The position numbers and the translations under genes are program-made. A DNA stretch of 51,766 nt from the NCBI GenBank assembly GCA_030446715.1, contig JAUJMU010000015.1, positions 100,953 through 152,718 on the forward strand. The letters are read 5' to 3'. Positions 22,119 through 51,532 of this stretch are shown piece after piece. Each line of letters opens with the position of its first letter. Position 1 is the stretch's first letter. The stretch comes from Cytophagales bacterium (lineage in GTDB: Bacteria > Bacteroidota > Bacteroidia > Cytophagales > 172606-1). The notes beneath the pieces were generated by a model, which worked only from the letters and a program-made list of their open reading frames with translations, ran no database searches and was not told where the DNA came from.

Positions 22119-22298
22119 CGGCACCGCTGGTTCAGGCTTTGGGCCTGGACCCATTTTAAAATTCTGGCACCTGCCGGAGCCGGATACACTGCCGCACATC
22201 CGGGCCGGAAGCCCTGCCAATAACTGTCACCCGGCAAGAGCCGGAGCGACTGCGGAGGAATGTTGGGGAGGCCCAGGCGGGACGCCTGAACCAGCGGG
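22119..22298. repeat. Nested inverted repeats between gltD and hemB, including divergent REP-like ends
   Basis: Outer arms are CCGCTGGTTCAGGC with GGCCTGGAC (from 22119) and CAGGCGGGACGCCTGAACCAGCGG (to 22298). The inner part contains copy 2 of the 54-bp element (22200-22253, minus orientation). The CGGGACGCCTGAACCAG end resembles the REP half CGTGGACGCTTGAACCAG found near the RAYT gene, so these may be distant members of that family. Confidence 0.5.
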
Positions 22299-39574: not shown

Positions 39575-39985
39575 GTTTACAGAATTAAGTCACTTTTGCA
39601 ATCCGGGCCGGGTTAAAATAATTGTCATACCAGGGTACATGTACCAGTTCCTGCCTCTTCAGGGACCTCACCCCCAGCCCCCTCTCCCTGGGTGAGGGGG
39701 CTGGGGGTGAGGTCCCTTGCCGGAATGTACCGTAGTATAAATAATTGTTAAATCTGTTACGGGTCCATTTAACATTGACGGATGGCCGGGTACCGGGATG
39801 TTGCGCAAGCGGTATTGATTTTCAATTATTTACGGATTTGTTTAAATTGTTCCCAAATAAGCCGGGTAAGGGAATGGTAAAATGGGCTTAAAAATAAGGT
39901 AACAGGCGGGGAATAGTTTTGGAGCATAATTCCATTTACCCACAAAACCTTACTCCAAACCCTACATAATTACCTTCGCAAAAGT
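39575..39985. other. Spacer with long palindrome before the PhoX-like locus
   Basis: About 410 bases without a gene. The first half holds the large palindrome at 39661-39717. The second half is A/T-rich and must contain the promoter of the PhoX-like locus. The signal-peptide-like frame of that locus is open from 39917. Confidence 0.5.
39661..39717. repeat. Perfect 24-bp inverted repeat, CCTCACCCCCAGCCCC type
   Basis: The left arm 39661-39684 (AGGGACCTCACCCCCAGCCC plus CCTC) is perfectly complementary to the right arm 39694-39717, with a 9-base loop TCCCTGGGT. It is the larger relative of the element at 20279-20318. This class of CCTCACCCC palindromes is found in spacers of many bacteria (recalled). 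There is no T-run, so a terminator role is unlikely unless Rho-assisted. Confidence 0.85.
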
Positions 39986-42297: not shown

Positions 42298-42405
42298 GAG
42301 GCTACGCAATTTTAAATGGCGGATTCTGGATTTTGAATGTCCGGAACCACTGCCTGCCGGTCCTTTTCATCAAATGCTGAAATCCAAAATACCTGCTCCT
42401 GCAAG

Positions 42406-42429
42406 GATTTCAGCGTGGACGCTGGAATC
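42406..42429. repeat. REP-like palindrome, CAGCGT subtype, copy 1
   Basis: GATTTCAGCGT GG ACGCTGGAATC, arms of 11 bases with one mismatch. It resembles the palindromes near the RAYT gene but has CAGCGT in place of AAGCGT. Confidence 0.65.
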
Positions 42430-42470
42430 AGTTGGAGGTACACAGGTCATTGTTTGTATCTGATTTCTGT

Positions 42471-42498
42471 CTGGTTCCAGCGTGAACGCTGGAACCAG
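42471..42498. repeat. REP-like palindrome, CAGCGT subtype, copy 2
   Basis: CTGGTTCCAGCGT GA ACGCTGGAACCAG, perfect 13-base arms with a 2-base centre. It lies 41 bases from copy 1, in the spacer between the convergent peroxidase and GATase-like genes. Confidence 0.75.
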
Positions 42499-49578: not shown

Positions 49579-49606
49579 CTGATTCAAGCGTCCGCGCTTG
49601 AATCAG
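49579..49606. repeat. REP-like palindrome B
   Basis: CTGATTCAAGCG TCCG CGCTTGAATCAG, perfect 12-base arms. It lies upstream of the DUF58 gene and is the leftmost member of the cluster around the RAYT gene. Confidence 0.85.
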
Positions 49607-49615
49607 TCTGAGGTA

Positions 49616-49660
49616 ATATCTGAATGAAGCAGACAAAATATGTCTGCTTCATTCAGATAT
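49616..49660. repeat. Perfect 20-bp stem hairpin next to palindrome B
   Basis: ATATCTGAATGAAGCAGACA (49616-49635) is perfectly complementary to 49641-49660, with an AAATA loop. Its sequence is unrelated to the REP palindromes. No T-run follows, so it is not a standard terminator. Confidence 0.85.
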
Positions 49661-49830
49661 CCGATAAAAAGAAGGTTAAGCACAGATTGAATTTAGGGAT
49701 AACTTTATAACCAGGGAAAATAAGACTTTGATCTAATTGCCGGTTGATGATAATGGTGCCTCTTCGAATGAGTAGGTCTCATTTGAAAAGTACAGGCTTG
49801 AAAAGCTTCATTGAAATCTTCTTTCATTAA

Positions 49831-50163
49831 ATGCTTATTATGAAAACTTATCTCAAAAGGGCTGGTAGTATCTTGATTATTTGTGAATCAGCAGTTTTAA
49901 TGTTGTATGCCCTGAATCACTTTTTTGCAGATAAATTATTAGAAACAACCGGTTTCGATACCTGGTCTGAAGATTATGAAGAGATTGTCCGCTGGGTAGT
50001 TATAAATAACCTGTTAGCTACCCCGGTACTGTTCTTGTACAGTATTAGTTCTCTTATAAATAACAGGCATCAGAGAATTAATTACGGTACTTTATTTGCT
50101 TTGCTCAGTAGTAGTTTTTACTTGACTTTACTTTTTCGTGATATGTACCTTAAATCTGTTTGA
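49831..50163 (+). CDS. Small hypothetical membrane protein
   Basis: This 110-residue protein has about three membrane segments: AGSILIICESAVLMLYAL (about 12-29), VINNLLATPVLFLYSISSLI (about 56-75) and YGTLFALLSSSFYLTLLF (about 85-102). A short acidic loop (FDTWSEDYEEIVRW) lies between the first two. The family is not recognised. It starts at ATG 49831, or at ATG 49840 (MKTYLKRAG). It is clearly more A/T-rich than the surrounding genes and sits between REP palindromes B and C, so it may be acquired cargo; that is inference. Confidence 0.6.
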   Translation: MLIMKTYLKRAGSILIICESAVLMLYALNHFFADKLLETTGFDTWSEDYEEIVRWVVINNLLATPVLFLYSISSLINNRHQRINYGTLFALLSSSFYLTLLFRDMYLKSV

Positions 50164-50199
50164 GTGAAATTATAATCAGGTTAACTGCCAGTACAGACT

Positions 50200-50223
50200 G
50201 ATTCAAGCGTCCACGCTTGAATC
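50200..50223. repeat. REP-like palindrome C
   Basis: GATTCAAGCGT CC ACGCTTGAATC, perfect 11-base arms. It lies 50 bases past the RAYT stop, between the RAYT and small membrane protein genes. Confidence 0.85.
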
Positions 50224-50273
50224 TCTTCAATGGAAATCTAATCTGAAATTCCCACGCGCTGATCTGTTATTTT

Positions 50274-50831
50274 TCATACGGGGCACAATTTAACCGGACT
50301 GGACGGATAAGCACTGCTGTAGTAATAGTCCTGAGGTTCGGCCACAAAACCTGACCTGACCGGATTCTGGTGGATATAATTGATTTTCTGCTGAACCTTA
50401 GCCAGATGATCAAGCAGAACAGGGTAATTTTCGTTTTGCCACAACTGATGATAGTTTTGCCACAACTGATGATATTTATTGAGCGGATTTTCCGATCCGT
50501 GCTTTCTGAAGAGAGGTAACATCCAGTCCTTTCGGCTCTCCTGCGGATTATTCATGATCATCTTGACCAGTTCTTTGGAAGTGAATGTTTTAAAGTCTCT
50601 CAAAGTGTTGCCCAAAGGTTTTTCAAGTGATCTTGCTACCAGATGCAGATGGTTGGTCATCAGCACATATGCAAAAACTTCCAGTCCTTTGTTTTTCACG
50701 CAGTGGTTCAGACAATCCACAACAAAATCTCTGTAAAGGCGTCGGGTGAACACATCTGCCCAGTCAACAACGGTCAAAGTGAGAAAGCTGACATCGTTTG
50801 GTGCAGTTGTTCTTCGCATTGTTAAAAGCAT
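50274..50831 (-). CDS. REP-associated tyrosine transposase (RAYT), Y1/HUH family
   Basis: This 185-residue, single-domain Y1 transposase is related to IS200/IS605 TnpA. Such enzymes (TnpA-REP) cut and join single-stranded DNA at REP hairpins. The metal-binding motif is YVLMTNHLHLVARS (His61 and His63, HLH form). The catalytic Tyr152 lies in the RAYT hallmark KINYIHQNPVRSGFV. LGNTLRDFKTFTSKEL is also typical. The start is ATG 50831 or 50819. The frame is open to 50954, but those codons only translate REP palindromes. Palindrome D touches the 50831 start codon. A 7-residue tandem repeat (YHQLWQN twice) precedes Tyr152. No terminal repeats typical of a free IS are seen; palindromes lie on both sides. 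Confidence 0.88.
   Translation of the reverse strand: MLLTMRRTTAPNDVSFLTLTVVDWADVFTRRLYRDFVVDCLNHCVKNKGLEVFAYVLMTNHLHLVARSLEKPLGNTLRDFKTFTSKELVKMIMNNPQESRKDWMLPLFRKHGSENPLNKYHQLWQNYHQLWQNENYPVLLDHLAKVQQKINYIHQNPVRSGFVAEPQDYYYSSAYPSSPVKLCPV
50434..50475. repeat. 21-bp exact tandem duplication inside the RAYT gene
   Basis: GTTTTGCCACAACTGATGATA is present twice without a gap (50434-50454 and 50455-50475 by 21-base unit, the first base of copy 2 being 50455). It duplicates seven residues (YHQLWQN) in frame, so the reading frame is kept. Confidence 0.9.
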
Positions 50832-50860
50832 CTGGTTCAAGCGTGGACGCTTGAACCAGA
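50831..50860. repeat. REP-like palindrome D
   Basis: TCTGGTTCAAGCGT GG ACGCTTGAACCAGA, perfect 14-base arms, the best-formed copy. Its left edge shares a base with the RAYT start codon at 50829-50831, so it lies in the RAYT promoter/leader. Confidence 0.9.
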
Positions 50861-50899
50861 AAATGTAATGTTGGATACTGATACTGACTTTGTTTACAA

Positions 50900-50950
50900 A
50901 CTGGTTCAGGCGTCTAACAAACTGGCTCAAGTGTCCACGCTTGAACCAGT
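50900..50950. repeat. REP-like palindrome E plus half-copy
   Basis: A half element ACTGGTTCAGGCGT (50900-50913) is followed by a full one, ACTGGCTCAAGTGT CC ACGCTTGAACCAGT (50921-50950, two mismatches). With D, 40 bases away, this makes a clustered REP array upstream of the RAYT gene. Confidence 0.8.
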
Positions 50951-50954
50951 CCAT

Positions 50955-51127
50955 TCAGTCCGATTCTGCTGCCTGTCTGATGACTTGGTTGCGTTCCGGA
51001 AGTAATTTTTTCATGTAGCCGGTGAGCACCAACTGGTTGAACAGCTGCCCCAGAGGTCCCAAGGGAGACTGGAAATCAAATTTATCCGTCATGAGTGTAA
51101 ACTGACCCTGCTCACGGACCCCACGAA
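50955..51127 (-). pseudogene. C-terminal fragment of an SRPBCC family protein
   Basis: The frame encodes GVREQGQFTLMTDKFDFQSP, then LGQLFNQLVLTGYMKKLL and ERNQVIRQAAESD, which matches from memory the last third of START/SRPBCC-fold proteins of Cytophagales (full length about 150 residues). The first two thirds are missing. Upstream, the sequence switches directly into palindrome F (51128-51155). Downstream, palindrome E begins 4 bases after the stop. It has no start codon of its own outside the palindrome and is a remnant. Confidence 0.7.
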
Positions 51128-51155
51128 CCGGATCAAGCGTGGACGCTTGATCCGG
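51128..51155. repeat. REP-like palindrome F at a gene breakpoint
   Basis: CCGGATCAAGCGT GG ACGCTTGATCCGG, perfect 13-base arms. It lies exactly where the DUF433 gene ends and the truncated SRPBCC sequence begins. The outer bases differ from D (GATC in place of GGTTC) while both arms stay complementary. Confidence 0.88.
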
Positions 51156-51384
51156 TATGAGTAAAATCCTCATACCTGAATTGAGGAGATGTGATTACGC
51201 GGCCTGCCAATTCAGTTATTGCTTCAGCCTGTTCGCGGCTTACACCCGGGAATCCCTGGAGGAACTCATCCAAGGAACGGGCTTCCGGATAATCAAAAAG
51301 AGTTTGTACAGCTACTCTGGTGCCGCGGAATACGGGTGTGCCTCCCAGTATTTCCTTGTTTACCTCAATTACGTTTTGATTCAT
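51133..51384 (-). CDS. DUF433 protein (antitoxin-like)
   Basis: This 83-residue protein has the DUF433 core: EILGGTPVFRGTRVAVQTLFDY (about 11-32), then SLDEFLQGFPGVSREQAEAITELA (about 37-60). DUF433 proteins are predicted DNA-binding antitoxins usually followed by a DUF5615 PIN-like toxin. No such toxin follows here; the next sequence is palindrome F and an SRPBCC remnant. The last residues (GSSVHA) and the stop codon are encoded by the palindrome itself, so the native C-terminus has been replaced. ATG 51384 (MNQNVIEVNKE) is used; a GTG at 51423 is less likely. Confidence 0.82.
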   Translation of the reverse strand: MNQNVIEVNKEILGGTPVFRGTRVAVQTLFDYPEARSLDEFLQGFPGVSREQAEAITELAGRVITSPQFRYEDFTHTGSSVHA

Positions 51385-51504
51385 AAAGGTTTTGCCGTTA
51401 TTCTCCAATAAACGGAAACTCACCGGAAACTGCTGATTACCATCAGGATTTTGCGTCCATTTACAGAAAAATTTTGGCGTCCATATCAGAAGACTTTACC
51501 ATTT

Positions 51505-51532
51505 CTGATTCAGGCGTCCACGCTTGATCCAG
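51505..51532. repeat. REP-like palindrome G (imperfect)
   Basis: CTGATTCAGGCGT CC ACGCTTGATCCAG, 13-base arms with three mismatches. It lies upstream of the DUF433 gene and is the rightmost copy seen. The remaining 234 bases to the window end show no gene I can support. Confidence 0.65.

Follow-up and report, generated by a model that had tools for sequence, protein, structure and literature searches.

The locus described here is likely to be a REPtron, composed of a single-copy domesticated HUH/Y1 transposase of subclass 2.6 (RAYT group 5) and its cognate family of REP palindromes, with a mechanism based on hairpins carrying a CT-ended foot as the most likely one. The REP-RAYT pair proposed in an earlier note on this DNA is borne out by a match of the protein to NCBIfam NF047646, by a palindrome family found throughout the host genome, by the association of the palindrome core with one RAYT clade and by the Foldseek similarity to 4er8. 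Subclass 2.6 is typical of Bacteroidetes and, in the survey text available to us, is already described with "atypical" REPs devoid of GT[AG]G (PMC6006769), therefore the pair is of a known kind and the view that such pairs are mainly gammaproteobacterial is outdated. The gene and the REP copies located in the 51,766-nt window (the whole stretch of DNA analyzed) are listed below, with E-values from a covariance model.

22127 to 22153, plus strand: decayed REP copy, left end of an inverted pair of about 170 bp (E 1.1e-3)
22268 to 22294, minus strand: decayed REP copy forming the right end of that ~170-bp inverted pair (E 3e-5)
42404 to 42431, minus strand: REP copy of the CAGCG subtype, imperfect (E 5.4e-10)
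42471 to 42498, minus strand: REP copy of the CAGCG subtype with perfect 13-bp arms (E 2.6e-11)
49579 to 49606, plus strand: REP copy B; the plus strand is the CC strand and carries the CT foot (E 3.6e-12)
50198 to 50225, plus strand: REP copy C, downstream of the RAYT gene (E 9.3e-13)
50274 to 50819, minus strand: RAYT gene, TnpA_Y1 subclass 2.6 / RAYT group 5, 181 aa (NF047646, 36-protein alignment, AlphaFold, Foldseek)
50832 to 50859, minus strand: REP copy D (E 4.7e-14)
50900 to 50914, plus strand: half copy of E, read directly from the sequence
50922 to 50949, plus strand: REP copy E, full (E 6.7e-11)
51128 to 51155, minus strand: REP copy F (E 5.3e-11)
51505 to 51532, plus strand: REP copy G (E 1.5e-10)

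The cluster reported around the transposase was recovered, with six complete palindromes and a half copy surrounding the gene, and so were the CAGCGT-subtype pair near 42.4 kb and the distant, decayed relatives at 22.1-22.3 kb. The full copies in the window, including the 42.4-kb pair, match the covariance model at E ≤5.4e-10, scores which are partly circular because most of these copies were among the 45 genome copies used for training. A pattern scan with TCAAGCGTSSACGCTTGA allowing up to 3 mismatches gave 8 matches in the window, against a mean of 0.04 and a maximum of 1 in 100 shuffled windows. The CT foot of copy C corresponds to 50198-50199, the end distal to the RAYT gene, and copy D lies 12 nt upstream of the RAYT start codon with its foot on the gene strand, at the outer end. 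The half copy looks like a tandem duplication of about 21 bp comprising one arm and its flank. The final codons of a DUF433 gene, stop included, are provided by copy F read on the minus strand.

The RAYT protein scores 85.8 bits against NF047646 (cut-off 80) and, in an alignment of 36 proteins, displays intact catalytic residues and the motifs NHLH, WQ, YIHQNP and SS in the tail, in agreement with those given for subclass 2.6 in Table 1 of PMC6006769 (NH[LIV]H, WQ, YIH[QN]NP and an SS tail). Translation more likely starts at the ATG at 50817-50819, since close aligned relatives begin there, and the motif residues would thus be H57, H59 and Y148; the HUH and tyrosine residues pointed out in the earlier note are present, but its numbering (61, 63 and 152) was counted from an ATG 12 nt upstream. 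The AlphaFold model (pLDDT 92.9) has the predicted fold of an HUH single-strand nuclease, and its top Foldseek match is 4er8, the E. coli RAYT bound to REP (E 2.3e-6). In contrast to subclass 2.6 as described, the protein harbors an additional tandem 7-aa repeat at the W motif, which none of the other 35 proteins in the alignment shares and which is modeled with reduced confidence. Due to this duplication the HUH-to-Y spacing is 92, or 85 if the repeat is discounted, compared with mostly 84-86 in the relatives analyzed and a median of 82 in the part of the survey consulted (PMC6006769); we read it as a variant of one single protein, the median being no strict limit. In the host genome the gene has one full match, the remaining matches being partial and far under the cut-off, and an IS200/IS605 element, for which several near-identical transposase copies are expected, was rejected.

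The palindromes are dispersed over the host genome (G000). Within 3 mismatches, 79 places were found, as opposed to 4 for a reversed-pattern control, and 25 exact 18-mer copies are spread over 12 of the 25 contigs. Confinement of the palindrome to the vicinity of the gene, which the earlier note named as an observation that would speak against the pair, is thus contradicted, and local duplication was rejected on the same grounds. The REP 10-mer occurs at 75 places, 13 of which are left out of the copy counts, with one further place at the edge of a stretch; in addition, 8 of 62 copies were taken out before the foot and covariation counts because they are of the CCAGGCGTGGACGCCTGAACCAG repeat type. 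These matches resemble a SusC protein motif at first sight, but lie in reading frames no longer than 125 aa; a coding origin was rejected, and they constitute a second repeat of about 105 bp with terminal inverted repeats. Among the 54 copies counted, the CT foot is present on the CC strand in 47 and on both ends in 27. The host REPs lack the GT[AG]G of canonical REPs and, as reported for subclass 2.6, they are hairpins that flank the gene and have copies elsewhere in the genome.

By crude ORF calling 48 of the 54 copies are intergenic, and the 46 with a clear gene setting are distributed as 26 convergent, 17 tandem and 3 divergent. Such a location would also fit hairpins of the host itself, bidirectional transcription terminators for example, among which the RAYT gene lies by chance. 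Nevertheless, we consider this explanation very improbable, as it does not account for the fixed core and loop sequence, the CT foot and the tracking of the palindrome with the RAYT clade across the phylum. G004 and G006, two genomes of the same family as the host in which a search at E 1e-10 found no RAYT, lack any covariance-model match, and G003 and G005 have weak matches only (best E 0.013).

The association with the clade is evident in the RAYT tree, in which the own clade is supported at 100/97: the AGCGTCCACGCT core is found no further than 400 bp from 11 of its 12 genes and from 5 of the 154 others. The exception is G135, which has a separate REP type with 12 forward places in that genome, none in G000, G001, G145, G115 and G082, and a single place, at 3 mismatches, in G004 and likewise in G058. 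Core and clade are not strictly paired, since in G128 the core adjoins a RAYT of a different clade. Likewise, high dispersal is not general in subclass 2.6, because the REP type of G040/G054 has few copies, mostly close to the RAYT gene. The other observation named in advance as adverse, palindromes in genomes devoid of the transposase, holds in part for a few genomes, such as G082 and G042 of genus g23, with 65 and 38 strand matches, respectively, and no own-clade RAYT among that part of the matches placed in the tree. Together with the shifted REP of G135, genomes whose REPs lack a matching RAYT make the co-evolution of REP and enzyme testable beyond Proteobacteria.

Genomes of genus g23 are also compatible with the locus being a relic, in which REPs were spread earlier by the RAYT lineage, the 7-aa duplication has damaged the enzyme, and the palindromes persist today either passively or for some unrelated reason. 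The occurrence of this duplication in just one of the 36 aligned proteins and the two decayed copies in the window point in the same direction. However, the intact catalytic residues, the confident model outside the duplication and the 25 exact copies on 12 contigs speak against it, and we regard a relic as rather unlikely.

In order to characterize the hairpins, a sample of 171 RAYT genes was compared. Hairpin density reached 1.39/kb within 350 bp of these genes, falling to 0.16/kb past 700 bp; 90 of the 171 have no qualifying hairpin and 78 have usable flanking ones. A CT-ended foot separated from a 3-4 nt loop by exactly 10 bp was found in 41 of the 78 genes on the loop strand and in 12 on the opposite strand. 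Counted per gene, the foot is on the loop strand only in 31, on the opposite strand only in 2, on both in 10 and on neither in 35. Gene-weighted over the same 78 genes, CT directly 5' of the stem amounts to 41% at a stem length of 10, 4% at 9 and 1% at 11, with 7% on the opposite strand at stem length 10; among relatives whose stem is 10 bp, position -1 is G in 2%. Hairpins distant from the genes also favor the CT foot (18 of 47 versus 7), and in the own clade, where 10 genes are too small a sample to decide, the corresponding figures are 4 loop strand only, 0 opposite only, 3 both and 3 neither. The earlier remark that no guide sequence is obvious is therefore probably wrong, as a CT foot at a fixed 10 bp recurs in 41 of 78 genes. 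The shared design suggests a target-finding mode of this poorly studied enzyme group; no prior description of a CT foot at a 10-bp stem was found in the titles and parts of the RAYT/REP literature searched. According to the section of the 2018 survey consulted, the region contacting GTAG is not conserved in group 5 RAYTs (PMC6006769), and a foot, stem length and loop that recur across RAYT lineages offer a concrete handle on GTAG-less REP recognition.

The stems covary strongly. Of 12 stem pairs compared over 45 distinct copies, 7 show changes in both partners, giving 44 such cells against 14.3 in shuffles, a value equaled in none of 500 shuffles. The covariation reported in the earlier note is thus confirmed, but the selection that it was taken to imply is less certain: among the 19 copies in which all 13 pairs are perfect, 12 have perfect arms of 16-31 bp with a locus-specific outer part, whereas by chance about 0.3 copies would reach 16 bp. 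Complementarity alone is no proof of selection, since matching arms could also be maintained by self-templated copying, and the locus-specific arms question how far complementary changes in REPs show selection. A purely mutational origin, in which a fold-back nascent strand copies arm and flank by template switching or by priming from a nicked 3'-OH, repairing mismatches and lengthening the palindrome, is a real possibility that we place somewhat below an even chance. These long arms are consistent with it, as is the inverted loop (GG versus CC) at L001 and L156, which have a similar left flank; yet copying alone does not predict the stem length, loop size and foot position that recur across clades with unrelated stems. 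That subclass 2.6 REPs extend by self-copying is a speculative and improbable reading: synthesis along the opposite arm and into the flank, primed by a nascent strand that folds back or by the 3'-OH which the RAYT leaves at the hairpin, would turn one-footed REPs into double-footed palindromes with locus-specific arms of up to 31 bp. If true, self-copying, combined with the CT foot, the stem of 10 bp and the short loop, would represent a mode of recognition and spreading unlike that of GTAG REPs.

An empty-site search for the long arms gave no match to the L159 region in G001 or G002; partial similarity of 64% was found in G007 (plus one short stretch) and G004, the palindrome not being spanned as compared, with the G007 locus alone aligned. 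G002, with only four covariance-model matches in total, shares one 4-kb stretch with the host at 99.5%, and this contig was left out of the analysis because it may be a transfer or contaminant.

Regarding the mechanism of the proposed REPtron, the CC strand of the locus, once single-stranded, would fold into a 10-bp hairpin (G-R-N-N-C-A-A-G-C-G) with a TCCA loop. The RAYT would bind this hairpin through the inner stem and loop and read the unpaired CT-ended foot directly 5' of the stem; Tyr148 may then cut near a CT dinucleotide, leaving a protein-linked end or a 3'-OH through which the REP, or an inverted REP composite, would be copied or joined elsewhere. From the enzymes of E. coli and S. 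maltophilia, which cleave at CT beside the REP according to the portion of PMC8266576 consulted, we infer that the RAYT binds single strands, cuts them and carries out strand transfer, with the foot as a guide.

The E. coli TnpA_REP / REP-BIME system (group 2; 4ER8) shares with the host the HUH fold, the single gene, inverted flanking REPs, mostly intergenic dispersal and a 5' unpaired motif at the hairpin foot, but relies on GTAG and a bulged stem instead of a CT-ended foot and a straight 10-bp stem. The group 3 REPtrons of Stenotrophomonas and Marinomonas, as far as the excerpted text of PMC8266576 describes them, have in common short perfect hairpins, important loop bases and, in their case, CT cleavage, yet belong to another subclass with a GTAG-type motif and, in the S. 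maltophilia REP, an 8-bp stem. The pair itself belongs to subclass 2.6, from which, in the passages of PMC6006769 available, motifs, protein length, Bacteroidetes host, atypical flanking hairpins and dispersed copies are all familiar; hairpins there are called atypical and weaker, whereas here many are perfect over 10 bp with a one-sided CT foot. CGTC-tagged REPs are also short palindromes of Bacteroidetes and other phyla, with CGTC as an unpaired end tag and, in the part of PMC3733652 consulted, no associated transposase found. In the host REPs, which are linked to a RAYT, CGTC is internal, at the stem-loop junction in mid-palindrome, and this assignment was rejected.

Only two related REP units, 83% identical over 213 bp, were found in the host genome, and most fetched copies are single. 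Two inverted REPs dispersed as one unit are known as a REPIN or BIME; in G001, 13 stretches were fetched and 10 of them tallied, of which 8 hold complete quads in the order CC+, CC+, CC-, CC-.

REP copies B to G, short palindromic hairpins, surround the gene of the REP-associated tyrosine transposase (RAYT):

50274-50819, minus strand, RAYT gene (181 aa)

This Y1/HUH protein belongs to an enzyme subclass already known, its motifs agreeing with those of TnpA_Y1 subclass 2.6 as set out in PMC6006769, except for the HUH-Y spacing, which is 92 because a 7-residue repeat lengthens it. This repeat, in which 7 aa (21 bp) around YHQLWQN are duplicated in tandem at the W motif (residues ~111-130), occurs in none of the 35 other proteins of the alignment, and H57, H59, W127 and Y148 are identical throughout all 36. 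A Pfam search gave no match and NCBIfam REP_Tyr_transpos matched with 85.8 bits (cut-off 80); among named genomes, the closest match is that of 'uncultured Cytophagales AVDCRST_MAG56' (58% identity). The AlphaFold2 model (pLDDT 92.9, confidence dropping around the extra repeat) resembles in its predicted fold 4er8, the E. coli RAYT-REP complex, which is the top Foldseek match (E 2.3e-6) and is followed by IS200/IS605 transposases; a PDB sequence search reached 4er8 only at E 0.32. Two things are added here to what is known of the subclass, a foot-stem-loop rule that covers many of its REPs and a puzzle of arm extension.

The palindrome family that the earlier note described around the transposase is real, since a pattern scan of the window yielded 8 palindromes at up to 3 mismatches against 0.04 expected, and a covariance model recovered the same sites and, near 22.1-22.3 kb, two decayed ones. 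The whole-genome count proposed there gave 79 places at up to 3 mismatches in the genome holding the window (G000; 6.43 Mb in 25 contigs), against 4 for the reversed pattern. The model search returned at least 137 strand matches at E<=1 (150 of 2071 candidates scored) and, among the matches listed, at least 63 separate places with E 3.6e-7 or lower, a count that takes in a second repeat type and is partly circular because 45 distinct copies trained the model. This second repeat (~105 bp, with terminal inverted repeats of the TCAGGACTTTCTCA type and a REP-like palindrome as axis) lies at loci L140, L158, L165, L168, L169, L171, L172, L175, L001 and L156, some copies having only one half. In L169, the stretch CGTCATTGCGAGGAGC..., directly 3' of the palindrome at 2054, looks like a possible CGTC-type REP, and therefore G000 may hold two REP superfamilies.

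Fetched stretches of G000 contained 79 sites at up to 3 mismatches to the 14-nt core, a count made differently from the genome-wide 79; 62 of them had no more than 2 mismatches together with 9/13 pairs or better, and setting aside 8 of the second repeat type left 54 copies (48 intergenic), 45 of them distinct. In these 45, 89.6% of cells are paired, double changes occur at 7/12 pairs (as many in 19/500 shuffles) and double-change cells number 44 versus 14.3 in shuffles (0/500 as high), a covariation signal lost when pairing partners were slid out of register. The 54 copies prefer a CT foot, the unpaired bases directly 5' of the stem, on the strand with CC in the loop (that strand alone in 20, the other alone in 3, both in 27, neither in 4), and the bias is clearer in G001, of the same genus (33/50 versus 3/50).

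RAYT homologues were found at E 1e-10 in 76 of 148 genomes, counting G000; named genomes supplied 80 loci, and the collection came to 171 distinct genes. Within 350 bp of a RAYT gene, 116 kb contain 162 hairpins with arms of at least 8 bp and a loop of 3-5 nt (1.39/kb), and beyond 700 bp 406 kb contain 63 (0.16/kb); 81 of the 171 genes have at least one, 37 on both sides. When hairpins were oriented by loop alone and arm length 10 was selected, the bases 5' of the stem were G 67%, C 70% and T 88% (70 hairpins, 44 genes). A loop-anchored, gene-weighted test on 78 genes placed CT at 15, 4, 41, 1 and 8% for stems of 8, 9, 10, 11 and 12, with 7% at stem 10 and 16% at stem 8 on the opposite strand. 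The foot of individual genes is summarised below.

CT foot per RAYT gene (loop strand only; opposite only; both; neither)
All, n=78: 31; 2; 10; 35
Outside the window RAYT's own tree clade, n=68: 27; 2; 7; 32
Within that clade, n=10: 4; 0; 3; 3

GCT stands in 12/14 hairpins of five RAYTs from Planctomycetota, Nitrospirota and Thermodesulfobacteriota, and 25 hairpins of 11 Chitinophagaceae-type genes include 16 GCT and 5 GTT. Far hairpins have CT in 18/47 versus 7 opposite (stems 9-11 allowed), and are no clean negative since some may be REPs themselves. Around RAYT genes, 63/85 CT-footed hairpins are in inverted order, feet pointing outward. By eye, the 3' flank seems conserved in Chitinophagaceae-type loci L089, L095, L097, L100, L105, L106 and L113, with TTGC or TCGC as its end some 10-14 nt past the stem, which may be a cleavage site.

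Our mechanism is modelled on the E. coli and S. maltophilia enzymes, which, according to PMC8266576, bind a single-stranded hairpin with a 5' foot motif at the guide position, cut at CT and then transfer the strand. As the G000-type foot itself ends in CT, it may serve the window RAYT as guide, cut site or both, and loop and inner stem would be recognised, both being conserved.

Palindromes are also assembled into composite units. G001 has repeated ~200-bp units of four in the order CC+,CC+,CC-,CC-, complete in 8 of 10 stretches tallied (of 13 fetched, chosen for palindromes), the foot being mostly on outer palindromes and mostly missing from inner ones; G000 has two related units (83% identity over 213 bp), and in Mucilaginibacter gossypiicola (L057) quads flank the RAYT on both sides.

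Among the 19 G000 copies whose 13 pairs are all perfect, 12 have arms that match perfectly over 16-31 bp, the outer parts varying between loci. Chance alone would give about 0.3 such copies, and the long arms therefore call for explanation. Either REPs inserted into hairpins already present or self-templated copying could have produced them; comparison of the L159 region with G001, G002, G004 and G007 found no empty site, and G001 copies have arms of 13 bp at most.

The earlier note also proposed a tree of RAYTs with matching REPs, and here the association stood while strict pairing did not. Among 166 RAYTs, the window RAYT falls in a 12-member clade (support 100/97, bootstrap not fully settled) with members from Mucilaginibacter, Bacteroidales, Flavobacteriales and Chlorobiota, and the core AGCGTCCACGCT (up to 1 mismatch, within 400 bp) adjoins 11/12 of them and 5/154 others (Fisher 1e-12, relatedness not corrected for). 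The remaining member, from G135, is accompanied by a REP that is related but shifted; this REP has 12 forward places in G135 and, at 3 mismatches, a single place in each of G004 and G058, and a search of five further genomes gave none. Two observations speak against strict pairing: in G128 the core adjoins a RAYT of a different clade, and G082 and G042 are rich in palindromes, with no own-clade RAYT among those of their matches that were placed in the tree. At least 9 places at up to 2 mismatches occur in 3/5 genomes with an own-clade RAYT and 3/143 others (148 searched), clade status covering matches placed in the tree and absence from a draft genome being no proof. Locus L189 (G002 contig C126) is 99.5% identical over 4 kb to L136 (G000 C2), which points to transfer or a contaminant contig; both genomes are classed as different species of one genus, and G002 has only four model matches in all.

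In the window itself, a 20-bp perfect inverted repeat (49616-49660; weak model match, E 0.008) adjoins REP copy B, a near-perfect C-rich 28-bp inverted repeat with a 1-nt spacer lies at 39661-39717, and copy F (51128-51155) provides the final codons and stop of a DUF433 gene (ORF 51133-51423).
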